Shown: piece by piece, positions 156 to 16,846 of the stretch
Position numbering within the stretch: the stretch's first letter is position 1
How the letters are laid out: each line of letters opens with the position of its first letter
Assembly: GCA_030539935.1 (NCBI GenBank)
Contig: JAUNXF010000008.1
Location: forward strand, 1-32,039
DNA length: 32,039 bases
From: Methanobrevibacter sp.
GTDB lineage: Archaea > Methanobacteriota > Methanobacteria > Methanobacteriales > Methanobacteriaceae
Reading direction: 5' to 3'
Notes under the pieces: generated by a model
Databases searched by the model: none
The model's input: only the letters and a program-made list of their open reading frames with translations
What the model was told of the DNA's origin: nothing
Translations under genes and position numbers: made by a program

Positions 156-229
156 CCAACCTTATGACTTTATTTATCAAACAGTCTGCTTATTAATTTT
201 ATTCAAATTTTTATTCAGCTTTTTTTAAT

Positions 230-1084
230 TTATTTTTTTAGATTCTCATTCAATGATCTTATTTCTTCTCTTAATTCCTTATTCAACTCTTTCATTTCTT
301 CCAATTCTTTTTTAAGGTGATTGAGATCATCATCTATCATATTTACTTTTTTGTGAACTGAATTTAAATTTTCCTTGTTGAAACTCAAATCCTCCTTTAG
401 GATTTCAATGTTGTCATCGTTTTTTGTAATGTTGAAGTCAGGATTTGCAAATAGCCTTCCTGCAAAGTAAGTTGCCATAGCCCCTGTTACTGCACTGAAT
501 AATAAGACCCCTATAATAAGGGTGATTAGGCCTATTGTCTTTCCTATGGCTGTTTGAGGCATGACATCACCATACCCGACGGTTGTAATGGTTGATAAGA
601 CAAACCATAAGCTATCAAACAAACTGTTTATGCTTGAATCGAACAGGTATAGTCCAAGTGTGGAAGCAAGAACTACAAGAAGTGTCACGCCAAATACCTC
701 ATCCAGATGTGTCTTTTTCAAGAAGACATCAATGGTCTCTAAAAATTGTGAGAAAAGGGCCATGATCTTGATGAATCTTAAGATTTTAAGCAACCTTAGA
801 TTATATGCATTCAATGCAAAGGGCATCATAATCAAATCAAAAGGGATGGCAGCCATTATTTCAAGCCAGTTCTTTAAAATGAATCGCTTTTTATTGTTTG
901 ATTGGGACAATCTTGTGAAGAAATCATTCCAAAGGACAATACATACAATAGTGTCAAAGACAATTATCCCATAATAAATGTTGATTGGAACCCTTGAAAT
1001 TAATGTAAAGCTTATCAGGACCAAATCAATTATTATCAGTATTGATAAGCATATATTAAACTTCTTAAAGTTATTCAATTTCAT
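230..1084 (-). CDS. Voltage-gated-type potassium channel with C-terminal coiled coil
   Basis: A 284-residue membrane protein. Hydrophobic segments at about 12-30, 38-53, 75-92, 104-120 (with R97, R103 and K106 near this S4-like stretch) and 128-148 precede the pore helix. The potassium selectivity filter TTVGYGD is at 167-173 and a last membrane helix spans about 182-206. This is the six-helix plan of the Kv/KvAP family. After residue 225 the protein is charged and heptad-like (LKKELEEMKELNKELREE), so it probably ends in a tetramerising coiled coil; no RCK/TrkA-N nucleotide-binding domain is present. The ATG at 1084 follows GAGGCAAATC. It stands alone, with no obvious operon partner. The potassium-channel call is strong; gating by voltage is inferred from fold only, since S4 carries few positive residues. 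Confidence 0.88.
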   Translation of the reverse strand: MKLNNFKKFNICLSILIIIDLVLISFTLISRVPINIYYGIIVFDTIVCIVLWNDFFTRLSQSNNKKRFILKNWLEIMAAIPFDLIMMPFALNAYNLRLLKILRFIKIMALFSQFLETIDVFLKKTHLDEVFGVTLLVVLASTLGLYLFDSSINSLFDSLWFVLSTITTVGYGDVMPQTAIGKTIGLITLIIGVLLFSAVTGAMATYFAGRLFANPDFNITKNDDNIEILKEDLSFNKENLNSVHKKVNMIDDDLNHLKKELEEMKELNKELREEIRSLNENLKK

Positions 1085-1274
1085 GATTTGCCTCTATAAG
1101 TATTTTCTTTATGAATCCTTTTGTTTTTAGTCAATGCATGGGCTTCTTATTTAGAATCAATGCAATGCTGCTTTGGTTAATTTTATTATTTCCTAATCAG
1201 TTTTTTCATCACCACAAGGAGAATGGACTCTTGAATAAGGTTGTTCATTTCCCCAATTTTGAATCAATAGCTTG

Positions 1275-1907
1275 CTAATTGTACAATGTGTCATAGTCAA
1301 TGAACTCCTTTTTAACATTAGCATTGTCAACATCCACTCTTTCCCGGTATATGCACTTGCCGGAATCCAAATGGGTCTTGTATACTTCAAATATTGCATA
1401 ATCCGCTTTTTCATCAAAATACACTATGTATGGCACATCTCCAAGATAGCAAGTTCCCAAATAGTTGCTGTCATTATACAGCACTTCCCCATTCTTTGAG
1501 TAGAAGATGACATTTACGGCATGAGTTCCAAAGCTTTTCTCATTGTATGTGATCTCATAGCCCACATCTGTAGAAACCTTTGATTCATACTGGGTTGAAT
1601 AAATGTATCTGGTGATCTTCAAATCATCCACTGCTACTGAATTGGACATCGCATCAGTAACTGCAGGCACAACGACATTTGCCATAACAATTATTGCAAG
1701 AATTATCAGAATTACTGCAAGGCAATATTTTCCAGTGCCATCGTCTTCAGAACTTTCCTTACTGGATGCAGATCCATAGCTGCCTGGCACATATCCTGGA
1801 ATATAACTTGAAGAACCATCGTATCCTCTTCCATACATCTTTTCCGAATCGCTGGCACCATAGTGATAGTCTGCATTCTGCATGAAAAAGTCATCGTCAC
1901 CTATCAT
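1275..1907 (-). CDS. Hypothetical single-pass membrane protein
   Basis: 210 residues with no family that I recognise. The first 60 residues are Gly/Ser/Tyr-rich and acidic (for example YGASDSEKMYGRGYDGSSS), which looks disordered. One strong membrane helix follows at about 61-83 (YCLAVILIILAIIVMANVVV). The remaining 125 residues are mixed beta-like sequence, including GYEITYNEKSFGTHAVNVIF, and are probably extracytoplasmic. This plan resembles archaeal membrane proteins with a short cytoplasmic tail and an exported beta domain, but that is inference. The ATG start is preceded by GGTGGAAATTC. Both neighbours are separated from it by more than 180 bases, so it is probably transcribed singly. 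Confidence 0.72.
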   Translation of the reverse strand: MIGDDDFFMQNADYHYGASDSEKMYGRGYDGSSSYIPGYVPGSYGSASSKESSEDDGTGKYCLAVILIILAIIVMANVVVPAVTDAMSNSVAVDDLKITRYIYSTQYESKVSTDVGYEITYNEKSFGTHAVNVIFYSKNGEVLYNDSNYLGTCYLGDVPYIVYFDEKADYAIFEVYKTHLDSGKCIYRERVDVDNANVKKEFIDYDTLYN

Positions 1908-2169
1908 GAATTTCCACCATTCACTCTATTGTTTAATTCTATCTTCATTATATAGTATTTATTTTTTTATATATTATCTTAATCATTATACCCCCTTAAT
2001 GAAGTTTCATAAAATGCTTATTTAACTATTTTAAACACTTAAAGATATTTATTATTTTCCCTTAAAAAATATTTATATGCCCTGTCTTTAGTTCATTAAT
2101 CCTTTAAATAAGTTTATATTTTAGTTTGAATAGAATTTTACATAATAACCAAAATCTATGAAGTAAAAT
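1908..2169. other. Intergenic region with promoter-like TATA boxes
   Basis: AT-rich spacer between divergently transcribed genes. TTTATATG near 2072-2079, preceded by an A-run, and TTTATATT near 2110-2117 fit archaeal BRE/TATA sites for the gene starting at 2170. CTTTAGTTCATTAAT at 2086-2100 resembles the left half of the repeated dyad element. No coding signal seen. Confidence 0.35.
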
Positions 2170-2733
2170 ATGTCAAGAATAAATATTGGAGCAAAACCAT
2201 ATATAATGCCAATGCCCGTGCTAATTGTCTCATCTTATGATGAAGAGGAAAAGCCATGTGCAATGTTGGCAGTGTGAGATGGAATAAGCAATGAAAAAGA
2301 AATTTCAATCACCATAGCATCACAAAGGAATACCCTAAAGGGAATTCTTTTAAGGGATTCCTTCGTCGTGAGCATGGCTGATGTTGAAAATGTGGTTGCA
2401 TGCGATTTTCTTGGAATAACCCCTGGAGAAAAGGTAAAGGACAAATTTGAAAAATCAGGATTCCATGCAACAAAATCAGAATTTGTCGATGCACCCATTA
2501 TAGATGAATTGCCTTTTGCAGTGGAGTGCAAAGTGAAAAGCTATGATGAGGCAAATTGGAGGCTGATTGGAGAAATTGTCAATGTAAGTCTGGATGAGGA
2601 AATTCTTGGCGATGACGGCAAGGTGTCCTTTGACAAATTCCATCCTCTTGCATTTGATTGGATGAGCAAAATCTATTTGTCAATTGGAGAAAAGGTTGGA
2701 AACGCTTATCGTGATGGCCGTCAATTGAAATGA
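2170..2733 (+). pseudogene. Flavin reductase-like FMN-binding protein, interrupted by in-frame TGA
   Basis: The frame starting at ATG 2170 reads MSRINIGAKPYIMPMPVLIV, continues to AMLAV, meets TGA at 2275-2277, and goes on in the same frame with DGISNEKEISITIASQRNTL and SMADVENVVACDFLGITPG to the stop at 2733, ending GEKVGNAYRDGRQLK. This is the flavin reductase/flavoredoxin split-barrel family, NAD(P)H- or ferredoxin-linked FMN proteins of about 185-190 residues. Family members usually have Trp at this point (pattern AMxAAWGGIS), so the TGA very likely comes from TGG. Without the first 36 residues the barrel would lack its first strands, although an ATG at 2368 leaves a 121-codon open frame. 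I read it as a recent nonsense pseudogene; a sequencing error is possible. No selenocysteine or pyrrolysine context is seen. Confidence 0.82.
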
Positions 2734-2740
2734 ATATGAA

Positions 2741-2775
2741 TTAATTAAGTTCATTAAAGCAGCACTTTACGAAAC
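2741..2775 (+). repeat. Copy of the repeated dyad element (diverged)
   Basis: TTAATTAAGTTCATTAAA followed by GCAGCA and CTTTACGAAAC. It matches the consensus at 12832-12868 in both halves with several differences. It lies just after the flavin reductase pseudogene and about 170 bases before tRNA-Leu. Confidence 0.6.
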
Positions 2776-2944
2776 TATGAAAATTCAGATTAATTCATAT
2801 AATAAATAAAGTCAACAAAGCAGTTTCAATGGCAAACTTCATGAAATTTTATATACTATGAAAACAAATATTAAATAGGAATCACTTATCCAATTCACCA
2901 TACTTAAAATCAATTGAGTGATTTCACTTAAAAAAGCATTATTT

Positions 2945-3026
2945 AGAGACATAGCGAAGCGGTCAAACGCGGCAGACTCAAGATCTGTTGATTAGTTCTT
3001 CAGGGGTTCGAATCCCCTTGTCTCTA
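2945..3026 (+). tRNA. tRNA-Leu (CAA anticodon)
   Basis: Class II tRNA of 82 nucleotides. The acceptor stem AGAGACA (2945-2951) pairs fully with TGTCTCT (3019-3025), with discriminator A at 3026 and no encoded CCA. The D arm is GCG/CGC; the anticodon stem GCAGA/TCTGT encloses CTCAAGA with anticodon CAA at 2979-2981, so it reads UUG. The long variable arm lies between 2989 and 3001, and the T arm is AGGGG-TTCGAAT-CCCCT (3002-3018). A T7 run at 3028-3034 is a likely terminator. No intron is seen. Confidence 0.95.
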
Positions 3027-3027
3027 C

Positions 3028-3034
3028 TTTTTTT
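3028..3034 (+). terminator. Oligo-T terminator of tRNA-Leu
   Basis: A run of T begins two bases after the tRNA 3' end, the usual archaeal termination signal. A second A-run/T-run pair follows at about 3074-3098. Confidence 0.5.
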
Positions 3035-3186
3035 AGGATAGGGAGTTTGTAAACTGAACTCTCATTCCACAATTAAAAAAAAAAAAACTCTTTTTTTAAA
3101 ATATCTTATTATTTCTAAAATATCTTATATTTTTTAGAATAGCTTATTATTATAATAATATCTTATTATTATTTTGCTTTTTTATC

Positions 3187-3306
3187 TTAGATATCTTTTT
3201 AAATTCAACTGATTCTTACCTGCAATCTAAATGCCCCCATTGTAAAGATAATCATAACAATATTGTTAAATTTGAATATAAAAAAAGAGGTTGGAAAAAA
3301 TATTAA
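3187..3306 (+). pseudogene. Fragment of a zinc-ribbon transposase N-terminus (probable)
   Basis: The frame reads LDIFLNSTDSYLQSKCPHC then KDNHNNIVKFEYKKRGWKKY and stops at 3304-3306. A CPHC knuckle (3232-3243) followed by a short basic beta segment ending in Lys/Arg/Trp is typical of the N-terminal zinc ribbon of archaeal insertion sequence transposases, where a second Cys-x2-Cys should follow. That second half and the whole catalytic domain are missing and there is no good start codon, so this is debris. The region from 3307 to 3524 shows no coding or structural signal. The assignment is from motif appearance only. Confidence 0.4.
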
Positions 3307-3524
3307 ATTTAATTGATTTCTCAATTAATAATTTTAAATATAACACAAGAAGACATACATATCCTAATAGTTAGAATAATTAAAATAAAAGTAGTGTTAA
3401 ATCAGCGAAAAATATTATTGATGATGCCCAGATATAAGGATTACTGAATATGAATTTATTAAAAAATAAAAAAAGATTTGGAATTCTGGCCAATCTTCTA
3501 ATGCCAAAATAAAACAAGAAACTT

Positions 3525-3818
3525 TTATAGTTCAAAATTGAAGCTTACTGATGTGAATTTCATTCCGCTATCTCTGATTTTTTTAGATTTTATCTCAACA
3601 TCCTCATATTTATTTAAGAATGAGGTAATCTCTCTAGAAACAGAGTCGTATTTTCTTCTATCATAAACCCTGTAAGTTCCCATGAATTTAACTGATTCAT
3701 TTTTATTTAGGACAGTCACTTTATCCATCCTGAATGATTCGCCGTTTTTCTCTAAACATGAGTTTACCTTATCCACTATCTCTTCTTTGATTTTTGCTTT
3801 TTCTTCACTGCTAATCAT
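3525..3818 (-). CDS. Small hypothetical protein (duplicate copy 2, complete)
   Basis: About 97 residues, soluble and charged, starting MISSEEKAKIKEEIVDKV and ending MKFTSVSFNFEL. The first third is helical and lysine/glutamate-rich; the rest alternates in a beta-like pattern (VTVLNKNESVKFMGTYRVYD). There is no Cys/His cluster, signal peptide or membrane helix, and I do not recognise the family. I chose the ATG at 3818 because GGAAGATGAT precedes it at the same place as in copy 1; ATGs at 3833 and 3842 (the latter with AGAGG four bases upstream) are alternatives. The partial gene at 1-67 is a near-identical paralogue, so about 3.7 kb separate two recently duplicated copies. Confidence 0.65.
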   Translation of the reverse strand: MISSEEKAKIKEEIVDKVNSCLEKNGESFRMDKVTVLNKNESVKFMGTYRVYDRRKYDSVSREITSFLNKYEDVEIKSKKIRDSGMKFTSVSFNFEL

Positions 3819-3990
3819 GATATCATCTTCCATTTTTAGCATAGTGCCTCTGATATTTTTGACATGCCTCAAGAACTTTCAGCAAATTTTAAGTTTATTT
3901 ATAATCTATAAATCATTATTTTTATAATTTTTGAGGAAATCATTATAAAATTGATAATTAAATTTATAATGCATTTAACGAATATCGGTT

Positions 3991-4051
3991 AAGTTTAATT
4001 AAGTTCATTTATCAAAGTTTAATTAATTCATTAACCTTAGTTTTACGAAAC
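3991..4051 (+). repeat. Repeated dyad element with an extra left half-copy
   Basis: A left half-copy, AAGTTTAATTAAGTTCATT (3991-4009), is followed directly by a full copy: AAGTTTAATTAATTCATTAA, then CCTTAG and TTTTACGAAAC (4015-4051). It lies 171 bases upstream of the ATG of the beta-helix gene at 4223 and in the same orientation, as does the copy upstream of the paralogue at 10039-11109. Confidence 0.75.
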
Positions 4052-4222
4052 CTAAACTATATTTATTTATATCTCTTTAAATATAATTTTAAGTATATTT
4101 TAGACTTTAGGCATTATCGCATTCATTAGTTTAACAAAAGTTTGGGAGTTCGTCAAATTCATGCGAAATTTCAGATGACTAAGGACATATTTAAAATTTT
4201 AATGGGAATAATGGGTGAATTT

Positions 4223-6594
4223 ATGGGATTATTTGATAAATTCAAGAAAAAAGCGAATGAAAACACCAATTTCGAATCCAATGCTAGCAAAGGTTTCAAA
4301 TTCCTTGACAAACTGATTCACAGCCGAGCCAAGGAGATTTCACTAGACTGTGACATTGAACTGAAACTGGAATTATTAAATAATGAAGAGAAGGCCTATC
4401 TCGAAGGCATTCCTTTAAATGTTGACAATCTGGTAATTGACGGCAATGGCCATTCAATAGATGCAAAAGGGAAAGCAAGAATATTCAACTGACAGGCAAG
4501 AACATAACCCTCAAGAATCTTACTTTTAAAAATGGGTCTGCAAGGGCAGGTAATGATTATGGAGAAGGTGGAGCCATAATACTTAATGATGGCAGCATAA
4601 ATATTTTTAAGTCATCCTTTACAGACAATCGTAGCGATGGTAGAGGAGGTGCAGTAGCCTGCTTCTATGGTGAGCTGAATATTAAAGATTCCACATTTTC
4701 CAATAATGCAGCTGCAAACGACAGTGGAGGAGCAGTATGCATTTATGGAGGAATATTAAATATGTCCGATTCCAGATTTTACAAAAACTCTGCAGAAAAG
4801 GCAGGTGCACTAGACCTTAGCAATGTTGATTTCACTATAGAAAAATGCACATTTTCAGATAATAAAGCCAAATCAGCAGGTGCACTAGACAATAGTGGCC
4901 CTAATCCACTTGCACCCACCCCTATCTTTTATGACAGTGTCTGTGACATAAAAGAATCAGTATTCGAAAACAACAGCGCTGAAGAATATGGTGCAATAAG
5001 CTCAAGCAAAATGCTGAACATATACGATTCTAAAATAATCTCCAACACTTGTGATGACGAATATGTCATTCATTTTAGAGACAACGTTAAAATCATAAAC
5101 TGCAAAATCTCCAACAATGAATCTCAAAAGGCCATTATAAATAATGAAGATTCATTGCAAATCTACGGAAGCGATTTCAAGGATAACATATCAAAAAATT
5201 ACATTATTGATAATGATTCCAATTTAAGCATTTTCAATACTAATTTTATTGAAAATAAGGTTGATGATGCAGTGATCTATAATAATGGAGAGCATTGCAT
5301 TGTCGAAAACGGTACTTTTGAAAACAACCTTTCCCATGGCGATGCAAAAAACATTTACAATGATGGCGAATTGACTTTGAAAAACCCAAAAATCAATGAT
5401 GAAAACAAAACCATATTCAATGATAGTTGGGGGCATATACTCATCAAGAACTCCCCTCCAAATTTATCCGATAAGATTGATGGGGATGGCGAAGTTGTAG
5501 TTGAAAATTCGATGATTCCTAAAGTAAAGACATTTGATTTTGGACATTTGGATAGAATAATTCACAAAAGCAATGAAAAGGAAATTTTTCTGGAAGATGA
5601 CATACTATTTGAAAATTATGAAAAGGAGTATTACGAAGGCGGAATCGAATTGGACATTGACGATTTGGTCATAGACGGAAATGGGAAAACAATTGACGGC
5701 GATGGAAAATCTCGCATTTTCACAGTAACAGGAAAAAACATCACCCTAAAAAATATCACGTTCAAAAACGGAAAATCCCATAAAAATTATGACAACAAGT
5801 TAAACAACCACGGAAGAGTATTGCGAATTACAAAGGGCGCAAATTTAACCGTGAAAAACTGCAAATTCCTAAATAACACATCGGAAGAATATGGTGGGGC
5901 AATATCCAATAGTGGTGAATTGAACATTTGCGAATCCCAAATATCCCACAATATCTCTAAATCCCATGGAGGAGCAATATTTAATTATCATGGGAAATTA
6001 AAGCTATCAAAATCCGTATTGAGCGATAATGATGGAAACAAGAAGGGTGGCGCCATATATAATATCTATGCCGATTTAAAGATGACGAATTCCATGCTTT
6101 CAGAAAATAGCGTAACCGGATCAGGTGGCGGTGGAATCGGTTCATATGGCCTCGGAGGAGCTATTTACAGTGAAGATAGTGATATGGACATATCAGAATC
6201 CACTTTATCGAATAACTATGCAGCATCCGAAGGTGGAGCCATATATAATTCTGAAGGTAATCTGCTAATGAGAAAATCCGCAATATCCAAAAATAAAGTA
6301 GGGAATTCCAATTTTTCAGGGGCAGTGCATTCATCCGAAAAGGGAATAGACAAAATCTTCAAATTTATTACCCAAGAGATTGGGGCAAGGTCCGTTTCAA
6401 ACACAGAATATTTTAATGTTGATGAGATTGGCAATCACATATTAAAGGGAATAAACTTGAAAGATTGTACATTTAAAGAAAATGATCCTTATGATCTTGC
6501 CATTGGTGCCATAAGTCATGAATATCTAAATGAATTCAGTTCTCAACTTGGATATTCAGTATATGATAAGGTTATGTTTGAGAGAAACGATTGA
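4223..6594 (+). pseudogene. Right-handed beta-helix (PMP-repeat, adhesin-like) protein, frameshifted
   Basis: Translation starts at ATG 4223 after GGTGA (MGLFDKFKKKANENTNFES) and proceeds to KARIFN, where TGA at 4490-4492 stops it. Removing one base's worth of shift near 4487-4491 restores TGKNITLKNLTFKNG, and that frame stays open from 4492 to 6594, so the intact protein would be about 790 residues. It has two tandem modules. Each opens with a cap of the form FxxLDxLIHxxxKEIxLxxDI..VIDGNG..ID..GK.RIF (about 4290-4490 and 5521-5735) and continues with short beta-helix coils such as EYGGAISNSGEL and EGGAIYNSEGNL. No signal peptide, anchor or membrane helix is visible, unlike exported methanogen adhesin-like proteins. 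A fragment starting at ATG 4762 could still be made. Slippage or sequencing error cannot be excluded. Confidence 0.8.
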
Positions 6595-6661
6595 TATCAT
6601 TATAACTTGAAAAATGAACAGTACTAAGTGTTGGAAGAAATGATATCCATCCAATAAGTCC

Positions 6662-6679
6662 AGAAAACTTTACGAAACA
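6662..6679 (+). repeat. Right-half copy of the repeated dyad element
   Basis: AGAAAACTTTACGAAACA keeps the TTTACGAAAC core; the left half is not recognisable. It sits about 45 bases upstream of the ATG at 6723. Confidence 0.4.
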
Positions 6680-6722
6680 TTTAAAATAATGACTTTTTAT
6701 AGTATTATATGAGGTTGTTTTA

Positions 6723-7565
6723 ATGAAAAAATCATCCATAATTCTATTTTTTGCAGTTTTTGAAATAATAGCAATTATATTATTCATCGCATTAAATGAT
6801 ATTTTCTACCTATTCAATTTCACATACATAGGGTCTTGCCTATCAATTGGTCTTTATTTGTACAATGTAGAAAACAAATATTCCAAATACGCTAGAAACT
6901 TTATTCAATTGGCCATAGGACTTTATATGTTAGTTTATCTTGGAATAATCTCTCATGAGAACCTGATGATAGAGGGATTCTGGTATTATCTATTTTTAGG
7001 AGTATTTGAAGCTGCAGTGATTCACTATCTCGTTGCAAAAATCTTGGGACCCTTCCTTTTTGGCCGTGGATGGTGCGGATATGCATGCTGGACTGCAATG
7101 ATTCTTGACCTTTTACCTTATAATGCTCCAAACAAAAACCTTGACCATAAAAGAAAGGATTACGGTTTCATCAGATATGTGCTTTTCATTATTTCCTTAA
7201 TTGGGGTGGGATTGCTTTTCATAAGGAATGTGCCTAATTTAAGCACAGTGATGTTTTACCTGTTTATAGCTGGAAACATTATTTACTACACAGTCGGAAT
7301 CCTCCTTGCATATGCTTTAAAGGATAATAGGGCTTTTTGCAAATACATTTGCCCTACCACAGTGTTTTTAAAGATAGGTGCAAGATACTCCTTATTAAAG
7401 GTAAAGTACAAAAGGGAAAATTGCATCATCTGCAATAAATGTTATAGGGTTTGTCCCATGGATGTTGATATTTGCAACAATGATAAAAATAAGAAAAACG
7501 GCACAGAATGCATTTTATGCTTAAACTGCACCAAGGCATGTGGCAATGATGCTCTTTTCCTATAG
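6723..7565 (+). CDS. Polytopic membrane 4Fe-4S protein (NapH/CcoG-like)
   Basis: 280 residues. Membrane helices lie at about 5-24, 28-46, 60-78, 87-108, 150-168 and 176-198. GRGWCGYAC (114-122) and FCKYICP (205-211) are the paired cysteine motifs of the NapH/MauN/CcoG 4Fe-4S membrane family. The C-terminal tail carries two 4Fe-4S sites: C234-x2-C237-x2-C240-x3-C244P and C263-x2-C266-x2-C269-x3-C273. Such proteins pass electrons between membrane and soluble redox partners; the partner here is not evident because the neighbours are beta-helix genes. GAGGT lies nine bases before the ATG. The C-terminus stops soon after the last cysteine, so there is no extra domain. The specific substrate is unknown. 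Confidence 0.85.
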   Translation: MKKSSIILFFAVFEIIAIILFIALNDIFYLFNFTYIGSCLSIGLYLYNVENKYSKYARNFIQLAIGLYMLVYLGIISHENLMIEGFWYYLFLGVFEAAVIHYLVAKILGPFLFGRGWCGYACWTAMILDLLPYNAPNKNLDHKRKDYGFIRYVLFIISLIGVGLLFIRNVPNLSTVMFYLFIAGNIIYYTVGILLAYALKDNRAFCKYICPTTVFLKIGARYSLLKVKYKRENCIICNKCYRVCPMDVDICNNDKNKKNGTECILCLNCTKACGNDALFL

Positions 7566-7806
7566 ACCATTTTTATCCAAGCTTTTTACGGTCATGAGAA
7601 CGCAAAAAACCTGATTAAAAAATGTTTTGCTAGGAAATAGTTGATTAAAAAGGGATTATCATTTTAAATAGTGAAAAAATAGCTTAGAATAAATAAAATC
7701 TTGAAAATTATAAAAAAATAAGTAAAATAATTGACAAAAATAAATTATCAATAAAATAAGAATTCACTAAGAGGCTAAAGTATGAAAATGCCTGAAAGTA
7801 TATGCA

Positions 7807-9003
7807 CTATCCAAACAATGCACCCAATGGAGAATAATCATCATCCCCCTTGTCCTTATCACAATCACTCACGTCATCTGAATTTGAGCCCTTGGATTTG
7901 CCATGACATTTAAAAGACTCATAGATGGGAACATCCACATCAAAATCAAAAACAATATCTCCAGAATTAATAATATTGTCCTTTAATAGCTTAAACTCCT
8001 TTTCATCAATGAATAGAACATCATCATTGGCCAAATAGGATTTTCCATCAATATTGCATGAACCTATTCTGCAAAGTCCGCTGTTTGCAATGACCCCTTC
8101 ATCATACTTATTCCTGAAACTTGAATTTTCAATTTCCAAAAATGGACTAGAGTCAAGTTCATCAGGACGGGAAACGCCAGAATACCACTGACTATTTTTT
8201 ATAAGGCTATCTTCGAATTTGCAATCCCTTATATGGAAAATGCCCATATTCTTAATTGAACCAAGGATCCTGTTTTCATTTTCAAAAATGGAATTGCTTA
8301 AACAAACTTTTCCAGCCTCATTTAAAATGGAAACTATCAATTCTGCAAAATCATAACTGCAATATACATTTTTATTGTCTTTAAATTTGCAGTTATCCAC
8401 AACCAATTCCCCATTTCGGTTAAAGATTACACAAATTTCACAGTCTTCACCCTTATTCTCTTGAAATATGGAATTCTTGACTTCAATAAGCCCATCATTT
8501 AAAATAAGCCCATAATGGGGATAGTCCACATCATTTTGATAAAAACGGGAATCGCAAACGAATGCATTGGAATCCTTTGCATTATAGATGCATACTGAAA
8601 ATCCTATAGATGATCTTGATAAGTAATTTCTATAAAAACAACAATTTTTTATCCATATGTTTCCAAAATAATTATGGATTGCACCTTGATTGTGAATGAA
8701 TCTGCAATTCTCAAATATCAAATCACCTGACCGGTTTGATATGAGAAACTCTGATTTGAAATTTTTAAAGCAAATATTCCTAAATGTGACGTTTTTTGCA
8801 TGATTCTTCAATCTGCACTGCCCTTCCTTGGCATCTATGACATGCCCATTTCCATCAATAGTTAAGTCATCAACATCCAGTTTGATTCCATCATTATATT
8901 TAGATTCTTCATCAGACCCTAATACAATATCTGAATCCAAAACAATCTCTTTTGCACTGCTGTGAATCAATTCATCAAGATATTGAAAATTTTTTGAACC
9001 CAT
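7807..9003 (-). CDS. Right-handed beta-helix repeat protein, signal-less
   Basis: About 398 residues. The start is ATG 9003 (MGSKNFQYLDELIHSSAKEI) because GGTG lies eight bases upstream; a TTG at 9009 is in frame. It shares the cap of the proteins at 4223 and 10039: FQYLDELIHSSAKEIVLDSD, then VDDLTIDGNGHVIDAKEGQ and FRNICFKNF. The coils that follow are more diverged, with few GGAI turns but clear period-like patterns such as NSIFQENKGE, NCKFKDNKN and NSIFENENR. The tail (about 365-398) is Asp/Ser/Lys-rich (SKGSNSDDVSDCDKDKGDDD). There is no signal peptide, membrane helix or wall anchor. A beta-helix fold is well supported; cell location and role are not known. Confidence 0.8.
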   Translation of the reverse strand: MGSKNFQYLDELIHSSAKEIVLDSDIVLGSDEESKYNDGIKLDVDDLTIDGNGHVIDAKEGQCRLKNHAKNVTFRNICFKNFKSEFLISNRSGDLIFENCRFIHNQGAIHNYFGNIWIKNCCFYRNYLSRSSIGFSVCIYNAKDSNAFVCDSRFYQNDVDYPHYGLILNDGLIEVKNSIFQENKGEDCEICVIFNRNGELVVDNCKFKDNKNVYCSYDFAELIVSILNEAGKVCLSNSIFENENRILGSIKNMGIFHIRDCKFEDSLIKNSQWYSGVSRPDELDSSPFLEIENSSFRNKYDEGVIANSGLCRIGSCNIDGKSYLANDDVLFIDEKEFKLLKDNIINSGDIVFDFDVDVPIYESFKCHGKSKGSNSDDVSDCDKDKGDDDYSPLGALFG

Positions 9004-9144
9004 ATCCAAACACCATACACTATTTATTATCTATTATTTTATTTGAATAAAAACTAGCCTTGTCCAATTAAGATGAATTAGTTGAAATAATTTGGCTTCA
9101 CATCAGCCAATGCGCTCAACTAGAATTAAATGGGAATTCAAGTT

Positions 9145-9786
9145 CTATTCAACATCAAAACCCTTTTCTATCATGCTGTTTTTAAGAATCTCCATGGCTT
9201 TTATTGTATCAGGTCCTGAAACCCTCTTAATCATGCGATTGTTTTCATTGAACCTTCCGATGAAATAATCTTGCTGCTCCTTGCTTACAAGGTCAAGTCT
9301 GGTATAGTTTGTAAGGCATTCCAGAAGGGCGAATACTCCCCTGTTTAAGGCCTTTGCACAGGGATGGTTTTTGACGATTTTGACAACATCACTGCTTACG
9401 ATATAAGCTTCCCCATTTGATGTTACATGGTCCTTAATCGGATCCATTTTTCTAATGTCTGTAACCTCACAAATGACATATGCTTCTGCATTCTTCAATA
9501 TTGCAATGTCCTCATCATCTGTAAACTCTTCAATATCCAAGTTTCCGATGGTTGAATTTACAAAATTTATAGGATCAAAAGTAATATTTACAACATATTT
9601 CCGGGTTTCCATAATGTTTTTGAGGGTTTTGGTACCGACAAATAATCTGCATCCAAGTTTGTCCTTGCCTTTGCATACAATTCCTATTGGCGCTGCATTT
9701 TTTACGCCGTCCTTGCTCATGGTAGTGTAAATCCCTTCATATTTCTGTCCTTCTTCAATTCCGATATCTGTCAAATCCATAGCCAT
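9145..9786 (-). CDS. DUF447-family flavin-binding split-barrel protein
   Basis: 213 residues matching the archaeal DUF447 family. The N-terminal part has the split-barrel look of FMN-binding proteins (GQKYEGIYTTMSKDGVKNAAPIG, split here as GQKYEGIYTTMS and DGVKNAAPIG; then RLFVGTKTLKNI and YVVNITFDP). The C-terminal half is helical (ALNRGVFALLECLTNYTRLD), as usual for the family. It is probably cytoplasmic and binds a flavin or a related cofactor; no reaction has been established that I can name. The ATG is preceded by GGTGATGAA; the second in-frame ATG two codons later is an alternative. It sits among accessory genes but resembles a core methanogen gene in length and composition. Confidence 0.85.
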   Translation of the reverse strand: MAMDLTDIGIEEGQKYEGIYTTMSKDGVKNAAPIGIVCKGKDKLGCRLFVGTKTLKNIMETRKYVVNITFDPINFVNSTIGNLDIEEFTDDEDIAILKNAEAYVICEVTDIRKMDPIKDHVTSNGEAYIVSSDVVKIVKNHPCAKALNRGVFALLECLTNYTRLDLVSKEQQDYFIGRFNENNRMIKRVSGPDTIKAMEILKNSMIEKGFDVE

Positions 9787-9874
9787 TTCATCACCTATAA
9801 TAATTTACATTATCAATATTAATATCTATTCTTTAATGTAATTAAAAATTATTATAAAAATTTAGGCATAATTG

Positions 9875-9913
9875 AAGTTTAATTTAGTTCATTAAACCTT
9901 AGTTTTACGAAAC
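9875..9913 (+). repeat. Full copy of the repeated dyad element
   Basis: AAGTTTAATTTAGTTCATTA then AACCTTAG and TTTTACGAAAC. GTTTAAT and ATTAAAC form a 7-bp inverted repeat with a 7-base loop, and GTTT-TACG-AAAC a second short dyad. With the inverse copy at 11251-11288 it brackets the beta-helix gene at 10039-11109. The rest of 9787-10038 is AT-rich and empty. Confidence 0.8.
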
Positions 9914-10038
9914 AAAAACCTAAAAAAATAACTTAAAAAAAAACAGACAAAAAACACTCCCCTAAAGAATAAAAAAACTTAAAAAAAGAAAAAGAATCAA
10001 ATAACCCATCTAAAAAAGCACAAATAAACAAATTCAAA

Positions 10039-11109
10039 TTATTTAGAACCTACATTAAAATTATCTGGCTTGTTGTGTTTAAATTTACAATTATTCAATT
10101 TTAAAGAATTATCATTTTCTGAATATATTGCTCCGCCAACCCTTTCGGATATGTTTGATTCAAACACAGATTGTGAAATAATGAGGTTCCCTTCAGAATA
10201 ATTGAAGATTGCACCACCTTCAAACTTATTTGATTTATTTGCCCCAAATACGGATTTTTGAATGCTTGCCTTGCCATAATTAACTATTGCACCAGCATAT
10301 CTAGCTGAATTTTCTTTAAAGGCAGACTGGCTTATATTCAACTTACAATCACTAGCATTGTAAATTGCTCCAGCAGATCCTGAAATGTTTTGCTTAAAAG
10401 AGGATTTGGTTACGTTCAATTGAGATCGCATCCAATTGCATATGGCCCCACCATTGCCATGATCTTCTGTAACTGAATTGTTAATGAATTCAGATTCCAA
10501 AATGCTTGCTTGGCCCCAATTATGAAATATTGCTCCACCATACCATTCTGCAGTGTTATCATCAAATATGGTTTTGGATATTGTCAAATCATTACGATTG
10601 ATTATTGCGGCGCCTCTTTTTGCTTTGTTTTTATTAAATATTGATTCTGCAATATTTAACTTACCGTAATTTCTTATTGCTCCACCCTCTCCTTTAGCCA
10701 TATTATTCTCAAATGTGGATTTCAATAGTTTTAAATTTCCTTTATTGAATATTGCTCCGCCATTTCCTTCATTGCATGTTCCATTTGCAATGTTATAAAT
10801 AAATTTGGATTCTATAATTTCCAAATTAGAGTCCTTAGAAATCTTTATTGCCCCGCCATTTATTGCTTTTCCATTTTTCAATATTATGTTTTTAAGTCTG
10901 ATATGTTTGCCGGAACAATCAAATATTCTTGCTTTCCCACATGCATCAATCCTATGGCCTTTACCATCAATAAGAACATCTTTATCTAATTTAATTCCAT
11001 CCCAATATTCAAGCTCCTCATCCTCAGTTAATTCTATATCAAAATCCAAAACTATTTTTTTATCCTTTCTTTGAATCAAATCATCAAGATATTTAAAATT
11101 ACGTGACAT
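10039..11109 (-). CDS. Right-handed beta-helix (PMP-repeat) protein, signal-less
   Basis: 356 residues, the most regular of the three paralogues. The cap spans about 1-70 (NFKYLDDLIQRKDKKIVLDF, then GKGHRIDACGKARIFDCSGK and LKNIILKNGKAINGGAI). About ten coils of roughly 25 residues follow, with turns GGAIFNKGNL, GGAIRNYGKL, YGGAIFHNWG, GGAICNWMRS, AGAIYNASDC, AGAIVNYGKA, GGAIFNYSEG and GGAIYSENDN. It ends 20 residues after the last coil with no anchor. No signal peptide precedes the cap: the ATG at 11109 follows GGGGGGCTAGTT and the protein begins MSRNFKYLDD. The repeat pattern is the one seen in methanogen adhesin-like proteins, but export is not supported here. A copy of the dyad element lies 141 bases upstream in the same orientation. 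Confidence 0.88.
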   Translation of the reverse strand: MSRNFKYLDDLIQRKDKKIVLDFDIELTEDEELEYWDGIKLDKDVLIDGKGHRIDACGKARIFDCSGKHIRLKNIILKNGKAINGGAIKISKDSNLEIIESKFIYNIANGTCNEGNGGAIFNKGNLKLLKSTFENNMAKGEGGAIRNYGKLNIAESIFNKNKAKRGAAIINRNDLTISKTIFDDNTAEWYGGAIFHNWGQASILESEFINNSVTEDHGNGGAICNWMRSQLNVTKSSFKQNISGSAGAIYNASDCKLNISQSAFKENSARYAGAIVNYGKASIQKSVFGANKSNKFEGGAIFNYSEGNLIISQSVFESNISERVGGAIYSENDNSLKLNNCKFKHNKPDNFNVGSK

Positions 11110-11250
11110 AACTAGCCCCCCGATTCATATAAAGAAATCTGTTAAATAATCAAGCATTCAAATTATTAATTAAAATAATTCACCCATTAAACTCCAAATA
11201 CAAAAACAAAAAAACTCACCCATTATATTCCAAATTCAAAATTAATTAAA

Positions 11251-11288
11251 GTTTCGTAAAACATTGGTTTAATGAACTAAATTAAACT
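11251..11288 (-). repeat. Full copy of the repeated dyad element (minus orientation)
   Basis: On the minus strand it reads AGTTTAATTTAGTTCATTAA, then ACCAAT and GTTTTACGAAAC. It is upstream of the gene at 10039-11109 and in its orientation. The rest of 11110-11489 is AT-rich with no coding signal that I can identify. Confidence 0.8.
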
Positions 11289-11489
11289 CAAGTGTAAAAA
11301 ATATTTAGGGGCCTGAATTTTTTGATGTGAAAATTCCCTCGAATTTTCCTTATTTTAATTCATTCTCCTAAAAAATAAGTTTAATTTCTAAAAATACAAA
11401 TGTATTTTTAGTTATATAAAAAAATAGGTCTTTAATATCGTTAAATTTAAATAATATGCTTTATAAATATATTATTGGCGATAATACTG

Positions 11490-12014
11490 AAGCATAGATT
11501 AAATTTAGATAAGAAAGACCCAAATTATATTTTGTTGAAAGAAATATTTAAAATTATGGATTCAAGAGAATCCAAACAAATATTGGCATCCTATTGATTT
11601 AAAAACCTAAACAGAACAATATTTGCTTTTAAAATCATTTTTATAAGCATGTTCTTTGGAATTGACATTCCATTCATCCTAAATGAACTCAAATCCAATA
11701 GAAGACTCTGCAAATTCCTTAATATTTCTGAAGTTCTGACTGCAGATCAAGTTTATAAAATCTTTTCAGAAATAAACTCTGAAAAACTTATAAAATCATT
11801 AAACAGAATCTTAAACTCAAGAAATATGGTCAAAAGGAGAGGAAAAAAGACTTTCATTGTCGATGCGATTCCAGTGGACTTGGATATCAATTTCCGCAGA
11901 AATAAAAAGAGCAAAGAACATCTCAGAAAATTGAATCTCAAATGGAGTTATTCTTCATCTAAAGGTTATTATATTGGATTTAAAGCGACTGTTGTGATGA
12001 ATTACGATTCTATG
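11490..12014 (+). pseudogene. Decayed transposase (DDE, IS4-like), truncated at both ends
   Basis: One frame reads KHRLNLDKKDPNYILLKEIF, stops at TGA 11595-11597, then continues as FKNLNRTIFAFKIIFISMFF, IPFILNELKSNRRLCKFLNI, KKTFIVDAIPVDLDINFRRN and SSSKGYYIGFKATVVMNYDS. The segments FIVDAIPVDLD (likely first catalytic Asp) and KGYYIGFKATVV are typical of IS4/IS1182-type DDE transposases. Homology stops near 12014, where the sequence turns into the end of a cas1 stump on the other strand. The C-terminal half with the remaining catalytic residues is gone, and an ATG at 11649 gives only a 142-codon hybrid frame whose last 15 or so codons are antisense cas1. No terminal inverted repeats or target duplications are visible. 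Confidence 0.7.
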
Positions 12015-12127
12015 ACATCAATTCTTTTTAAATTGATCTTTTCAAGCTCATCATCCTTTTCCTTAATCAATAGCTGATTATCACGCTTATGAATTGACTT
12101 ATTGTAGCCTTCAATTAATATCTTCAT
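12002..12127 (-). pseudogene. cas1: cas1 remnant (N-terminal 38-41 codons)
   Basis: On the minus strand, ten bases after the cas2 stop, ATG 12127 opens MKILIEGYNKSIHKRDNQLL then IKEKDDELEKINLKRIDVI and stops at 12002-12004. This matches the N-terminal beta domain of Cas1, the CRISPR spacer-integration nuclease of about 320-340 residues, in its pattern (G)xxKSIxKRDNQxxIKE. The rest of the gene, including the catalytic Glu/His/Asp domain, has been replaced by the truncated transposase. A cas1 stump directly behind cas2 in the same direction supports both assignments. It cannot support integration. Confidence 0.72.
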
Positions 12128-12136
12128 TAAAATCCC

Positions 12137-12412
12137 TCAAAAAATCCTATACAAATCTTCTACAAAACTTAAGTTCCTACCAAAGGTATTTGTTTTTTCA
12201 TAGCATGATTTGCATATTGGAATCATGATAATGCTATCATATTCCCTTATATTCTCCATAATATCTGTTTGCATCATAAACAGCTCATCATAATCAATAT
12301 CCCCAAAATACAGATTTTCCTGAATTCGCTTAAATGCAAAGTGCTTTAATATGCCTATTAACCTTTCCCTATTCGTCTTGAACTTTATTTCAAAAGAAAC
12401 TAAAACATTCAT
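12137..12412 (-). CDS. cas2: CRISPR-associated Cas2-like protein
   Basis: 91 residues, the usual Cas2 length (80-110). The first beta strand is MNVLVSFEI, then a helix with [20 protein letters not shown], followed by ENLYFGDID, an acidic helix, and [20 protein letters not shown], the order of the Cas2 ferredoxin-like fold; the PICKSCYEK ending occurs in part of the family. Cas2 is the dimeric scaffold of the Cas1-Cas2 integrase. The conserved Asp at the end of strand 1 is Glu here (E8). AGGTGTTATT precedes the ATG. The partner cas1 is a stump, and no CRISPR array or interference gene is present in the window, so this is probably an orphan left after loss of the locus. Confidence 0.72.
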
Positions 12413-12630
12413 AATAACACCTACGAGGATATTTTTTAAATTTATTATTAGAATATCTTATGATATTTTTTAAAAAAGAATTAAGATTTAAGTAAAATAG
12501 TTAAAAATTAATAAATTGCACTTAAAAAACAAATAAAAAGTTTTTTTATATTTAATATATGAATAGTGAATGTTTATCTATTATTTGAATAAAAAAAGAG
12601 ATTATAAAGATTTAAGATTTTATTAAAAAT

Positions 12631-12770
12631 TTGGAAACCTACCCAATATAACACCATTAAGAAGTTCCTCCTCAAAATCAAGGAAAAAAACGAGGAAAGG
12701 TTTATATAATATGATAACAGATTTGTGGAAACATACCCATTATAACACTGTTAAAAACCCCTTCCACAAA
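12631..12770 (+). repeat. Pair of diverged direct repeats with dyads
   Basis: Two units of about 40 bases start with GGAAAC at 12633 and 12727: GGAAACCTACCCAATATAAC and GGAAACATACCCATTATAAC, then ACCATTAAGAA versus ACTGTTAAAAA. They are 94 bases apart. The second is framed by a 9-bp inverted repeat, TTTGTGGAA (12722-12730) and TTCCACAAA (12762-12770). Behind the first lies TTCCTC (12665-12670) with GAGGAA (12692-12697). TTTATATAA at 12701-12709 is TATA-like. The rest of 12413-12830 is AT-rich and shows nothing coding. They could be decayed CRISPR repeats, a mobile-element end or a duplicated RNA element. Confidence 0.5.
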
Positions 12771-12831
12771 ACTTTTATAAACCAAGTAGAATAAACCATT
12801 TAAATAAGTAAAATAAGAAAAAATATTAAGG

Positions 12832-12868
12832 GTTTAATTTAGTTCATTAAACAATAGTTTTACGAAAC
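12832..12868 (+). repeat. Full copy of the repeated dyad element
   Basis: GTTTAATTTAGTTCATTAAA then CAATAG and TTTTACGAAAC. It is identical over 37 bases to 13232-13268, exactly 400 bases downstream. It ends 24 bases before the ATG at 12893, so a normal TATA box cannot fit between it and the gene. Confidence 0.85.
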
Positions 12869-12892
12869 GGAAAAATCCTTGGGGGAATGATT

Positions 12893-13159
12893 ATGGATGA
12901 AAAATATGCGTTTTATTTATTTATTTTATTCCTAGCCCTTCTTTTGATAATTTTGTGGGCTGTTTTTATAATCGATACAACAGAAAGGAATCAGCAAATA
13001 GATCATACTCACTATTATCATTCATCAAGTTCTGAAAATGAGGAACCTAAATATGTTTTAGAGAGATATCATCCTGTTGAAACTTATACTTCCCCTTATG
13101 ACAATAGGGATTATGTTAATCAGCTTTATAGGCTTTATCCCCAATATTATTATCCATAA
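12893..13159 (+). CDS. Small single-pass membrane protein, Tyr-rich tail
   Basis: 88 residues. The start is taken at ATG 12893 (MDEKYAFYLFILFLALLLII) because GGGGGA sits seven bases upstream; the ATG at 12887 directly abuts that site. One membrane helix covers about 6-27, followed by a polar tail rich in His, Ser, Glu and Tyr (for example HTHYYHSSSSENEE and LYRLYPQYYYP). No domain is recognised. A short N-terminus before the helix suggests that the tail could face either side; charge (DTTERNQQ after the helix) does not settle it. The gene is bracketed by two identical direct copies of the dyad element and has no operon partner. Confidence 0.6.
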   Translation: MDEKYAFYLFILFLALLLIILWAVFIIDTTERNQQIDHTHYYHSSSSENEEPKYVLERYHPVETYTSPYDNRDYVNQLYRLYPQYYYP

Positions 13160-13206
13160 AATTTTAAGATTTAATTTTTTCATTAATATTAAATGATTAA
13201 TTTTAT

Positions 13207-13229
13207 TAAGTTTTTTTAGTTTTTTTTAT
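13207..13229 (+). terminator. Oligo-T tracts after the small membrane protein gene
   Basis: Two T-runs (T7 and T8) separated by AG occur about 50 bases after the stop at 13159, a plausible archaeal terminator for the plus-strand gene. Confidence 0.4.
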
Positions 13230-13231
13230 TA

Positions 13232-13268
13232 GTTTAATTTAGTTCATTAAACAATAGTTTTACGAAAC
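13232..13268 (+). repeat. Full copy of the repeated dyad element
   Basis: Identical over 37 bases to 12832-12868 and in the same orientation, so the two form perfect direct repeats around the gene at 12893-13159. It lies immediately after the stop of the gene remnant at 13277-13526 when read on the minus strand. Confidence 0.85.
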
Positions 13269-13674: not shown

Positions 13675-14724
13675 TTATAAAATTTGCTTATTAATCAATT
13701 CAGCATTCAAAATAGAAGCACCAGCAGCACCTCTAATTGTATTATGTCCAACAAGAACATATTTGAAGCTGTTATCAAATGCTTGATCTTTTCTGACTCT
13801 ACCAACAGTAGCAGCCATACCGCCATAAGCCATTCTGTCCATTCTTGGTTGAGGTCTGTCATCTTCTTCTTTGACTATGACAGGTTGTTCTGGAGCGGAA
13901 TGAAGACCTAATTCTTGAGGAAGTCCTCTGAAGTCAGCCATTGTCTTTTTGATTTTATCAATGTCTGCTTCATCATCAAGCTCTACGAATACCGCTTCAG
14001 TGTGACCGTCAATAACAGGCACTCTGTGACAGGATGCACTTAATGAGAAGTTTGCAGGTACAACTTCATCACCGTCAAGTGAACCTAAAAGATGCAATGT
14101 TTCGCTTTCCATCTTTTCCTCTTCACCGCCAATATATGGAACCAAATTATCTACAATAGCCATTGAAGGAACACCGTTATAACCTGCTCCTGAAACAGCT
14201 TGCATGGTAGATACATAAATTCTGTTTATGTTGAAATTGTCATAGATTGGCTTTAATGTTAAGGTCAAAGCAATGGTTGAACAGTTAGGGTTAGTTACAA
14301 TGAAACCGTCCCAGTTGTTGTTTTTCTGTTGTGCTTCAATCATGTCCAAGAATTGTGGATTGACTTCAGGAATTACTAAAGGAATGTCCTTTTTCATTCT
14401 CATCGCACTAGCATTTGATGCCACAACAAAATCCTTTGCAAATTCTGGCTCGACTTTTGCAGCAAAATCAGCAGGAAGTGAAGAGAATACTATTTCAACA
14501 TCCTTATCCATCTGTGCAGGGTCAGTTTCAATAACAGTAATGTCTCTTACAGATTCAGGCATTTCACTATTCATATACCAAGTGGTAGCGTCTTCATATT
14601 TTTTGCCTGCAGATCTTCCAGAAGCTGCAAGTGCAGCAATTTCAAAATCAGGATGATCAGCCAACAATTGGATGAATCTTTGACCTACCATTCCAGTTGC
14701 ACCAAGTACACCTACTTTTACCAT
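13675..14724 (-). CDS. asd: Aspartate-semialdehyde dehydrogenase
   Basis: 349 residues, the archaeal/fungal-type enzyme that reduces aspartyl-4-phosphate to aspartate 4-semialdehyde with NADPH, the second step towards lysine, threonine and methionine. The NADP-binding loop [10 protein letters not shown] is at 8-17. The catalytic cysteine C148 lies in [10 protein letters not shown] (144-153), and the likely acid/base His is H241 in [10 protein letters not shown] (237-246). The C-terminus ([16 protein letters not shown]) is complete. GAGATGATTT precedes the ATG. It is the last gene of the lysC-dapA-dapB-asd run, 61 bases after dapB, and was probably co-transcribed with it. Confidence 0.97.
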
Positions 14725-16694: not shown

Positions 16695-16729
16695 GTTCGT
16701 ATCATTAAAAACCAAATATTTTTACGAAC
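16695..16729 (+). promoter_or_regulatory. GTTCGTA/TACGAAC inverted repeat upstream of dapA
   Basis: A perfect 7-bp inverted repeat, GTTCGTA (16695-16701) and TACGAAC (16723-16729), around an AT-rich centre that includes ATCATTAAAAA. It resembles the dyad element of the accessory region in its TTTACGAA core but is different in layout. It lies about 140 bases upstream of the dapA start, where an operator would be possible. The regulator is unknown. Confidence 0.4.
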
Positions 16730-16846
16730 CTTCAATGATTGTAAATAAAAATTAATTACAATAAAAAACGATAGAAACAAATTACTTCCCTTTAATGAAA
16801 ATAAAGTAAATGCCTCTTTATTGGGTAAAAATAATAAAAGCGAGAG

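Follow-up and report, generated by a model that had tools for sequence, protein, structure and literature searches.

A 37-bp repeat of Methanobrevibacter very probably belongs to a CRISPR-type array with gene-sized inserts, built by a stand-alone Cas1-Cas2 integrase

What is a 37-bp element with two dyads doing, in several copies, in the accessory block of a Methanobrevibacter chromosome? In the window, i.e. the whole stretch of 32,039 nucleotides that was analysed, we found five good copies of it, together with a diverged one, in a cluster near the gene asd. The copy GTTTAATTTAGTTCATTAAACAATAGTTTTACGAAAC at 12832-12868 (plus strand) is identical to the one nearest asd, a PWM match at 13232-13268 (plus). 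Further PWM matches lie at 9877-9913 (plus) and, as an inverted copy common to the M1-like genome G012, at 11251-11287 (minus); the copy at 4017-4051 (plus) lacks 2 bp, and the diverged one at 2739-2775 (plus) has a PWM score of 29, against 54-56 for the good copies. Outside this diverged copy, all full copies are identical by PWM except for 4-6 nt between the dyads, and the asd-side copy with the inner spacer AATA is retained in most array-bearing relatives. Indeed, the element is real: its 21-bp left part GTTTAATTTAGTTCATTAAAC has five matches at no more than three mismatches, against 0.00 expected from 100 shuffles. In its perfect form, GTTTAATN7ATTAAAC, the dyad is confined to the window, with just four occurrences across the entire 1.67-Mb assembly against zero for the reversed control. 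The preliminary description had placed the copies correctly to within 1-2 bases. The right-half pieces that it reported at 143-155 and 6662-6679 are at chance level (TTTTACGAAAC at no more than two mismatches, 19 matches versus 14.5 +/- 4.1 expected), and the loosely similar dyad that it pointed out at 16695 turned out to be a separate site, kept before lysine (dap) genes of related genomes. Within the genus, 14 of 19 genomes contain the element; 42 other genomes lack it, and viral contigs had 0 matches.

The neighbourhood of the copies suggests what they are. On the minus strand, 12137-12412 encodes a Cas2 of 91 aa (PF09827, E 6e-15; TIGR01573, E 3e-8), followed at 12008-12127 by the first 40 codons of a Cas1 with 93% identity to the intact Cas1 of G005; the remainder is lost, and the remnant is joined to an insertion-sequence transposase fragment (11649-12005, plus) which has no Pfam match and whose surroundings match at least five copies in G012 (M1) at 88-96%. 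An intact homologue of this Cas1 (L039:815-1819) matches PF01867 with an E value of 2e-72. Because Cas1 is truncated, the system in the window's genome is probably inactive. Between cas2 and the first repeat lies a conserved leader of ~400 bp (12413-12831, plus), which the repeat abuts exactly as in G005 and G008. It contains an 8-bp inverted repeat with the arms TTGTGGAA (12724-12731) and TTCCACAA (12762-12769), and its GGAAA begins 105 bp ahead of the repeat, a position shared with other species. The two identical repeats enclose a 363-bp insert, or 'giant spacer' (12869-13231, plus), with a 90-aa ORF at 12887-13159, and no full copy of this insert was found elsewhere in the window's genome, which is 75% complete. 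The DNA between the repeats further left (9914-11250) holds a beta-helix (Chlam_PMP-like) gene at 10039-11109 (minus). On the other side, asd (13675-14724, minus) is a fixed chromosomal gene that flanks the array in the genus; the gene that other species have beyond the array comes directly after asd in G011 and G015. The earlier suggestion of a link between the element and accessory DNA was correct, and the copies bound inserted DNA.

Is this arrangement common in the family? Stand-alone cas2-cas1 pairs of the window's Cas1 group (group A) were found in four genera of Methanobacteriaceae, and strong matches to group A Cas1 (>440 bits) are confined to this family; viruses gave only distant matches of no more than 37% identity. 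In group A, Cas1 has intact catalytic residues (E165, H230 and D242/E245 are invariant) and an adjacent Cas2, as in a CRISPR-Cas adaptation module, the truncated Cas1 of the window aside; ~29 of the genes have an open frame of almost full length. Nearly every pair is accompanied by its own repeat, which measures exactly 37 bp and keeps a constant distance to cas1; in the main subgroup, the first repeat lies 109-115 or ~190-198 bp from the cas1 stop. Within the window's genus, several genomes with arrays have no group A Cas1 (e.g. G009, 99% complete), so that arrays can outlive the enzyme. Among the matches listed (PADLOC, 25 of 54 families for 74 ORFs in the neighbourhood), we found neither Cas4 nor the linked effector or crRNA-processing genes of a CRISPR-Cas immune system near group A, although a weak cas match may lie further down the table. 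The sister Cas1s (group B) of the same genomes accompany type III-A effectors, with Csm3/4/5 and Cas6 among their PADLOC neighbours, and ordinary CRISPR arrays of 37-bp repeats and 36-bp spacers.

The anatomy of the group A arrays is that of an adaptation module, with the leader directly before the first repeat and an exact duplication of the repeat. Across 163 copy pairs from 22 arrays, each of 37 columns shows an identity of 0.95-1.00 between repeats, which drops to 0.28-0.36 at the first base beyond them. From one species to another the repeat changes in sequence and always keeps a length of 37 bp. GGAAA stands at -104/-105 in 17 of 22 leaders, and the dyad is found at a fixed distance across genera while its arms vary together between species. 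Some repeat copies are inverted or stand alone elsewhere in the genome, and copies keep no position relative to genes, some lying upstream and others downstream or antisense. What sets the group A arrays apart is their spacing: 74 inserts have a median length of 892 bp and a range of 201-4583 bp, against an ordinary spacing of ~36 bp, although decayed repeats may go unrecognised within some of the long intervals, which would overstate insert length. Uniform short spacers (~20-60 bp), by which a CRISPR array is recognised, are lacking in group A arrays; regular short-spacer arrays accompany none of 37 group A loci, 12 of 15 group B loci and all three type I-B (group C) loci.

Where do the inserts come from? 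Six of them, from the two species G071 and G131 (335, 414, 440, 483, 499 and 529 bp), reproduce at 98-100% identity chromosomal loci that are still intact in that genome. They are flush with the repeats on both sides, and none of the six donor fragments has a whole or partial repeat site at its ends. These donors are internal pieces of genes, e.g. hisH and adhesins. Virus genes are also found among the inserts: part of a 2623-bp insert is 87% identical to the methanogen virus vir080, which also matches a 504-aa cassette gene at 70% DNA identity; no source of this gene was found in viral contigs. Exact self-copies were absent from four further genomes searched for donors (G073, G076, G077 and the window's own), and no exact self-donor was found for seven short inserts from five others. 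Insert ends are weakly A-rich inward, and six donor sites are too few for a PAM.

Based on this anatomy and the base-exact donors, we conclude from sequence that the element is very probably the repeat of a CRISPR-type array built by a stand-alone Cas1-Cas2 integrase, and that the inserts very probably arrived by integration of this kind. In the mechanism that we propose, Cas1-Cas2 would recognise the conserved leader and the first repeat, and a linear double-stranded DNA fragment of ~0.2-4 kb, copied from the cell's own chromosome, a virus or another source, would be inserted at the leader-repeat junction with duplication of the 37-bp repeat. Inserts with a useful gene would be retained, and the array would thereby become a growing block in which repeats alternate with accessory genes. 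Both the chemistry of the enzyme and the benefit of the group A system are what we infer; that the benefit is gene capture is a tentative claim, which we would place a little short of even.

The strongest competing reading accepts the same array and takes its kilobase inserts for the functionless by-product of an adaptation module from which effectors and length control have been lost, the inserts being mostly neutral. We doubt this reading, but it deserves serious weight: of the 66 inserts analysed, 17 lack any ORF of 55 aa or more, the known self-donors are pieces from within ordinary genes, and several species, the window's and M1 among them, have a broken Cas1. However, the ~29 open Cas1 genes with their invariant active site and the leader dyad position kept across genera point to selection, and many inserts carry complete conserved genes common to several species. 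It seems very improbable to us that this is an ordinary CRISPR array whose long inserts work in trans with the cell's own type III-A or I-B effectors. Some group A genomes do have such loci, but many have group A arrays and no group B locus, the group A repeats are unlike those of the type III-A and I-B loci, and inserts reach 4.6 kb.

Among the three options of the preliminary description, a recombination site came nearest, since the copies bound inserted DNA, but the site is the repeat of a Cas1-Cas2 array and not that of a recombinase. There is little chance that a site-specific recombinase, integron-like or Xer/dif-like, moves cassettes each bearing the 37-bp site, even though the 4-nt inner spacer travels with the right-hand gene in several genomes of the genus (thi4 in the case of TAAA, a zinc-ribbon/TPR gene in that of CCAA) and part of the family has a XerA-like recombinase in the vicinity of cas2-cas1. 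The constant neighbour is Cas1-Cas2 and not an integrase, and a sequence that varies at a constant 37 bp is expected of a Cas1-Cas2 ruler; we discarded integron and Xer/dif cassette systems because Cas2/Cas1 adjoin the repeat and the exact donors carry no site. The other two options, an operator or 5' leader and a very small mobile element, are the least probable of all. The dyad symmetry and the several copies upstream of genes would suit them, but the exact donor copies and the missing fixed position relative to genes contradict them, and in other species unrelated sequences, again of 37 bp, occupy the same place beside Cas1-Cas2. A MITE or transposon was likewise rejected, as the inserts share no ends.

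How does the Cas1-Cas2 array compare with known systems? Its nearest relative is the adaptation module of group B, the type III-A loci found in the same family. The two share homologous Cas1 and Cas2, direct repeats of 37 bp with a leader next to the first of them, self and virus DNA copied in between, and a greater degeneracy of the distal repeats. In contrast to the ~36 bp of group B, group A inserts measure 0.2-4.6 kb and are often whole genes, with no regular array and, among the matches listed, no effector, Cas6 or Cas4. Integrons (IntI, attC) reach the same outcome, an array at one fixed place in the chromosome in which repeats set off cassettes of single genes. Group A, however, has Cas1-Cas2 in place of IntI, its captured pieces need not be genes, the six donors have no attC-like site, and no constantly linked integrase was seen in the loci inspected. 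In plasmid Xer/dif modules, too, mobile genes are flanked by short conserved sites that have inner dyads, whereas the group A data need no recombinase and combine a site varying in sequence at constant length with site-free donors. In casposons, the Cas1 transposons, Cas1 likewise works on DNA as long as a gene or longer. The group A inserts, however, are flush chromosomal fragments without terminal inverted repeats and mostly free of Cas1-Cas2, the target is the leader-repeat of an array, and polymerase B was found neither among the listed Pfam families of cassette ORFs nor in the inspected cas1 neighbourhoods.

We give even credence to the broader proposal that this effector-less Cas1-Cas2 lineage, widespread in Methanobacteriaceae, is a gene-capture integrase which copies kilobase pieces of cell and virus DNA into a dedicated array and feeds the accessory genome of gut methanogens, as the CRISPR counterpart of the integron. 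No prior description of such arrays was found in the open-access literature searched. Known Cas1-Cas2 complexes are rulers by which spacers are held to about 30-40 bp. If the proposal is true, a CRISPR integrase can act as a gene-capture machine on pieces 10-100 times longer and without effectors, and it would be a natural enzyme that places gene-sized DNA at a short defined site. The occurrence of groups A and B within one family makes length control by Cas1-Cas2 directly testable. The finding would also bear on how CRISPR adaptation arose from, or reverts to, DNA mobility, and it would explain the hypervariable accessory block of rumen and human gut methanogens.

The element GTTTAATTTAGTTCATTAAAC-NNNN-GTTTTACGAAAC is present in the window as the preliminary description had it, and its 21-bp left part, allowing three mismatches or fewer, gives five matches where 100 shuffles gave none. 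Repeat copies were placed by a PWM scan at 2739-2775, 9877-9913, 11251-11287 (minus strand), 12832-12868 and 13232-13268, while a further copy at 4017-4051 carries a 2-bp deletion; a search of the whole assembly found the exact dyad confined to the window. The right-half pieces, which had been listed alongside the copies, occur at chance level when taken alone, and the look-alike at 16695 turned out to be a distinct conserved site preceding the lysine operon. This dyad (GTTAAAGTTCGTATCATTAAAAACCAAATATTTTTACGAACC, 16695-16730), located before dapA and conserved in four compared genomes (G009, G010, G016 and G017), probably serves to regulate the lysine genes and has no relation to the repeat. 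The accessory block also holds a tRNA-Leu (CAA) at 2945-3027, flanked by two repeat copies, and a stretch that comprises an uncharacterised 115-aa gene and the region upstream of it is duplicated at 1-155 and 3752-3900.

Using a degenerate 37-mer at up to three mismatches, we found copies in 14 of 19 genomes of the genus and in none of 42 other archaea, and a reversed-control pattern gave no matches in the same search. Every match in the GTDB contig collection was Methanobrevibacter, and the viral contigs searched contained none. In most copy-bearing genomes the copies form one block adjoining asd, in which the repeats set apart single genes or small gene groups; in G011 and G015 the gene found beyond the array elsewhere comes immediately after asd, i.e. 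an empty site. Genomes mostly share the same array order and differ by the presence or absence of entire cassettes. In several genomes the 4-nt spacer within the site keeps company with the right-hand gene (TAAA with thi4, CCAA with a zinc-ribbon/TPR gene); closest to asd, the copy has AATA in most genomes.

The window holds a cas2 gene (12137-12412, minus strand; PF09827, E 6e-15) and the first 40 codons of a cas1 gene (12008-12127), 93% identical to the intact Cas1 of genome G005 (PF01867, E 2e-72) and cut off by an insertion-sequence fragment. The array in this genome is probably frozen, and several relatives retain arrays without any Cas1 of this lineage, here called group A. In G000, G005 and G008, a leader of about 400 bp lies 5' of cas2 and runs directly into a repeat.

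Is this arrangement common in the family? When this Cas1 was used as query, stand-alone cas2-cas1 pairs turned up across the family at 50-65% identity, matches above 440 bits being confined to the family, and nearly all pairs are surrounded by exact 37-bp direct repeats of species-specific sequence. In 163 copy pairs taken from 22 arrays, each of the 37 columns shows an identity of 0.95-1.00, which falls to 0.28-0.36 one base outside; later repeats of an array carry more mismatches. Inserts between repeats have a median length of 892 bp (n = 74, range 201-4583). In the main subgroup the first repeat lies 109-115 or about 190-198 bp downstream of the cas1 stop, whereas G064 and the window's genus have the leader on the cas2 side. 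The leaders carry an inverted repeat with co-varying arms (GTGGAAAC/TTCCAC, GAGGAAAC/GTCCTC, TAGGAAA/TTTCCTA), and GGAAA stands at -104/-105 in 17 of 22. A XerA-like tyrosine recombinase and an MntP-like gene lie near the stand-alone cas2-cas1 in many species of the M. smithii group (loci L137:7755-8831, L142:4611-5693, L143:6834-7928).

The origin of the inserted DNA could be traced directly in two genomes. G071, a single contig, has inserts of 483, 414, 499 and 529 bp that match chromosomal loci at 684625, 1799374, 1382517 and 921250, respectively, as 99-100% copies, and the two inserts nearest the leader in G131 (335 and 440 bp) copy such loci at 98-99%. Aligned base by base, insert and donor agree up to the final base at each repeat, save for a few internal mismatches, and diverge at once beyond; the donor flanks, checked for a repeat or part of one, had none. 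The donors are pieces internal to genes, which we read as hisH, moaE, an acyltransferase, a pterin-binding enzyme and adhesins. Since they are gene-internal and still in the chromosome, capture copied the DNA instead of moving it and did not select whole genes. One G071 insert, of 2623 bp, partly matches portal/protease genes of the methanogen virus vir080 at 87% identity; a stretch of it recurs in G076 at 99% identity, where it is inverted and ends differently, which suggests independent capture. Among the cassette genes are acyltransferases, an MmeI-type restriction enzyme, Thi4, a DNA ligase, a glycosyltransferase, an ion channel, regulators and virus head genes. A recurring cassette gene family, with products of about 90-150 aa, shares the motif K-x-N-x-E-x-x-x-N-L-P (L127:5979-6431, L131:9245-9631, L137:13250-13657, L135:13324-13707); three members scanned had no NCBIfam match. 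Read inward, insert ends show a weak bias to A (position 4 is A in 41 of 61 inserts from L129, L163 and other arrays), with T-rich positions at -4/-3, a possible end preference.

The other Cas1 genes of the same genomes serve as internal controls, and they have ordinary arrays. Group B Cas1 (about 40-45% identity), encoded beside the type III-A genes Csm3, Csm4, Csm5, Cas6 and Csx1, accompanies 37-bp repeats with a period of about 73 bp in 12 of 15 loci; group C Cas1 (26% identity; type I-B) accompanies 30-bp repeats at about 66 bp in all three. In contrast, none of 37 group A loci held a regular array, and no Cas effector appeared among the matches listed for 74 neighbouring ORFs. Group B falls on one side of a branch with support 100/100; group A may not form a single clade in this analysis, and either group may be the ancestral one. 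The catalytic residues of group A Cas1 (E165, H230, D242/E245) are invariant, and 4n06 is its best solved relative. The YDISD start motif of the family's type III-A Cas2s is missing from group A Cas2, which is also shorter by one residue ahead of the central strand; these differences are a candidate basis of changed length control.

The array anatomy, the exact 37-bp unit, the linkage to Cas1-Cas2 and the donors are direct observations, and their simplest account is that Cas1-Cas2 integrates DNA between hundreds and thousands of base pairs long at the leader-repeat junction, which would duplicate the repeat as in CRISPR adaptation. For the enzyme chemistry, the leader-end polarity and the length preference, this is what we infer. 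The system resembles CRISPR adaptation in mechanism and the integron in result. When examined for the defining features of known systems, group A arrays had neither the short uniform spacers of a CRISPR array nor the linked effectors of a CRISPR-Cas immune system, neither the attC at the cassette of integrons nor the terminal inverted repeats of casposons. Its parts are clearly homologous to the CRISPR adaptation module, and a stricter reader may class it as a variant thereof. To our knowledge, and within the open-access literature checked, no described system stores gene-length DNA with Cas1-Cas2. As to the benefit, the young inserts hold gene fragments, which fits kilobase inserts being a by-product, while the old inserts hold conserved whole genes, which fits gene capture.
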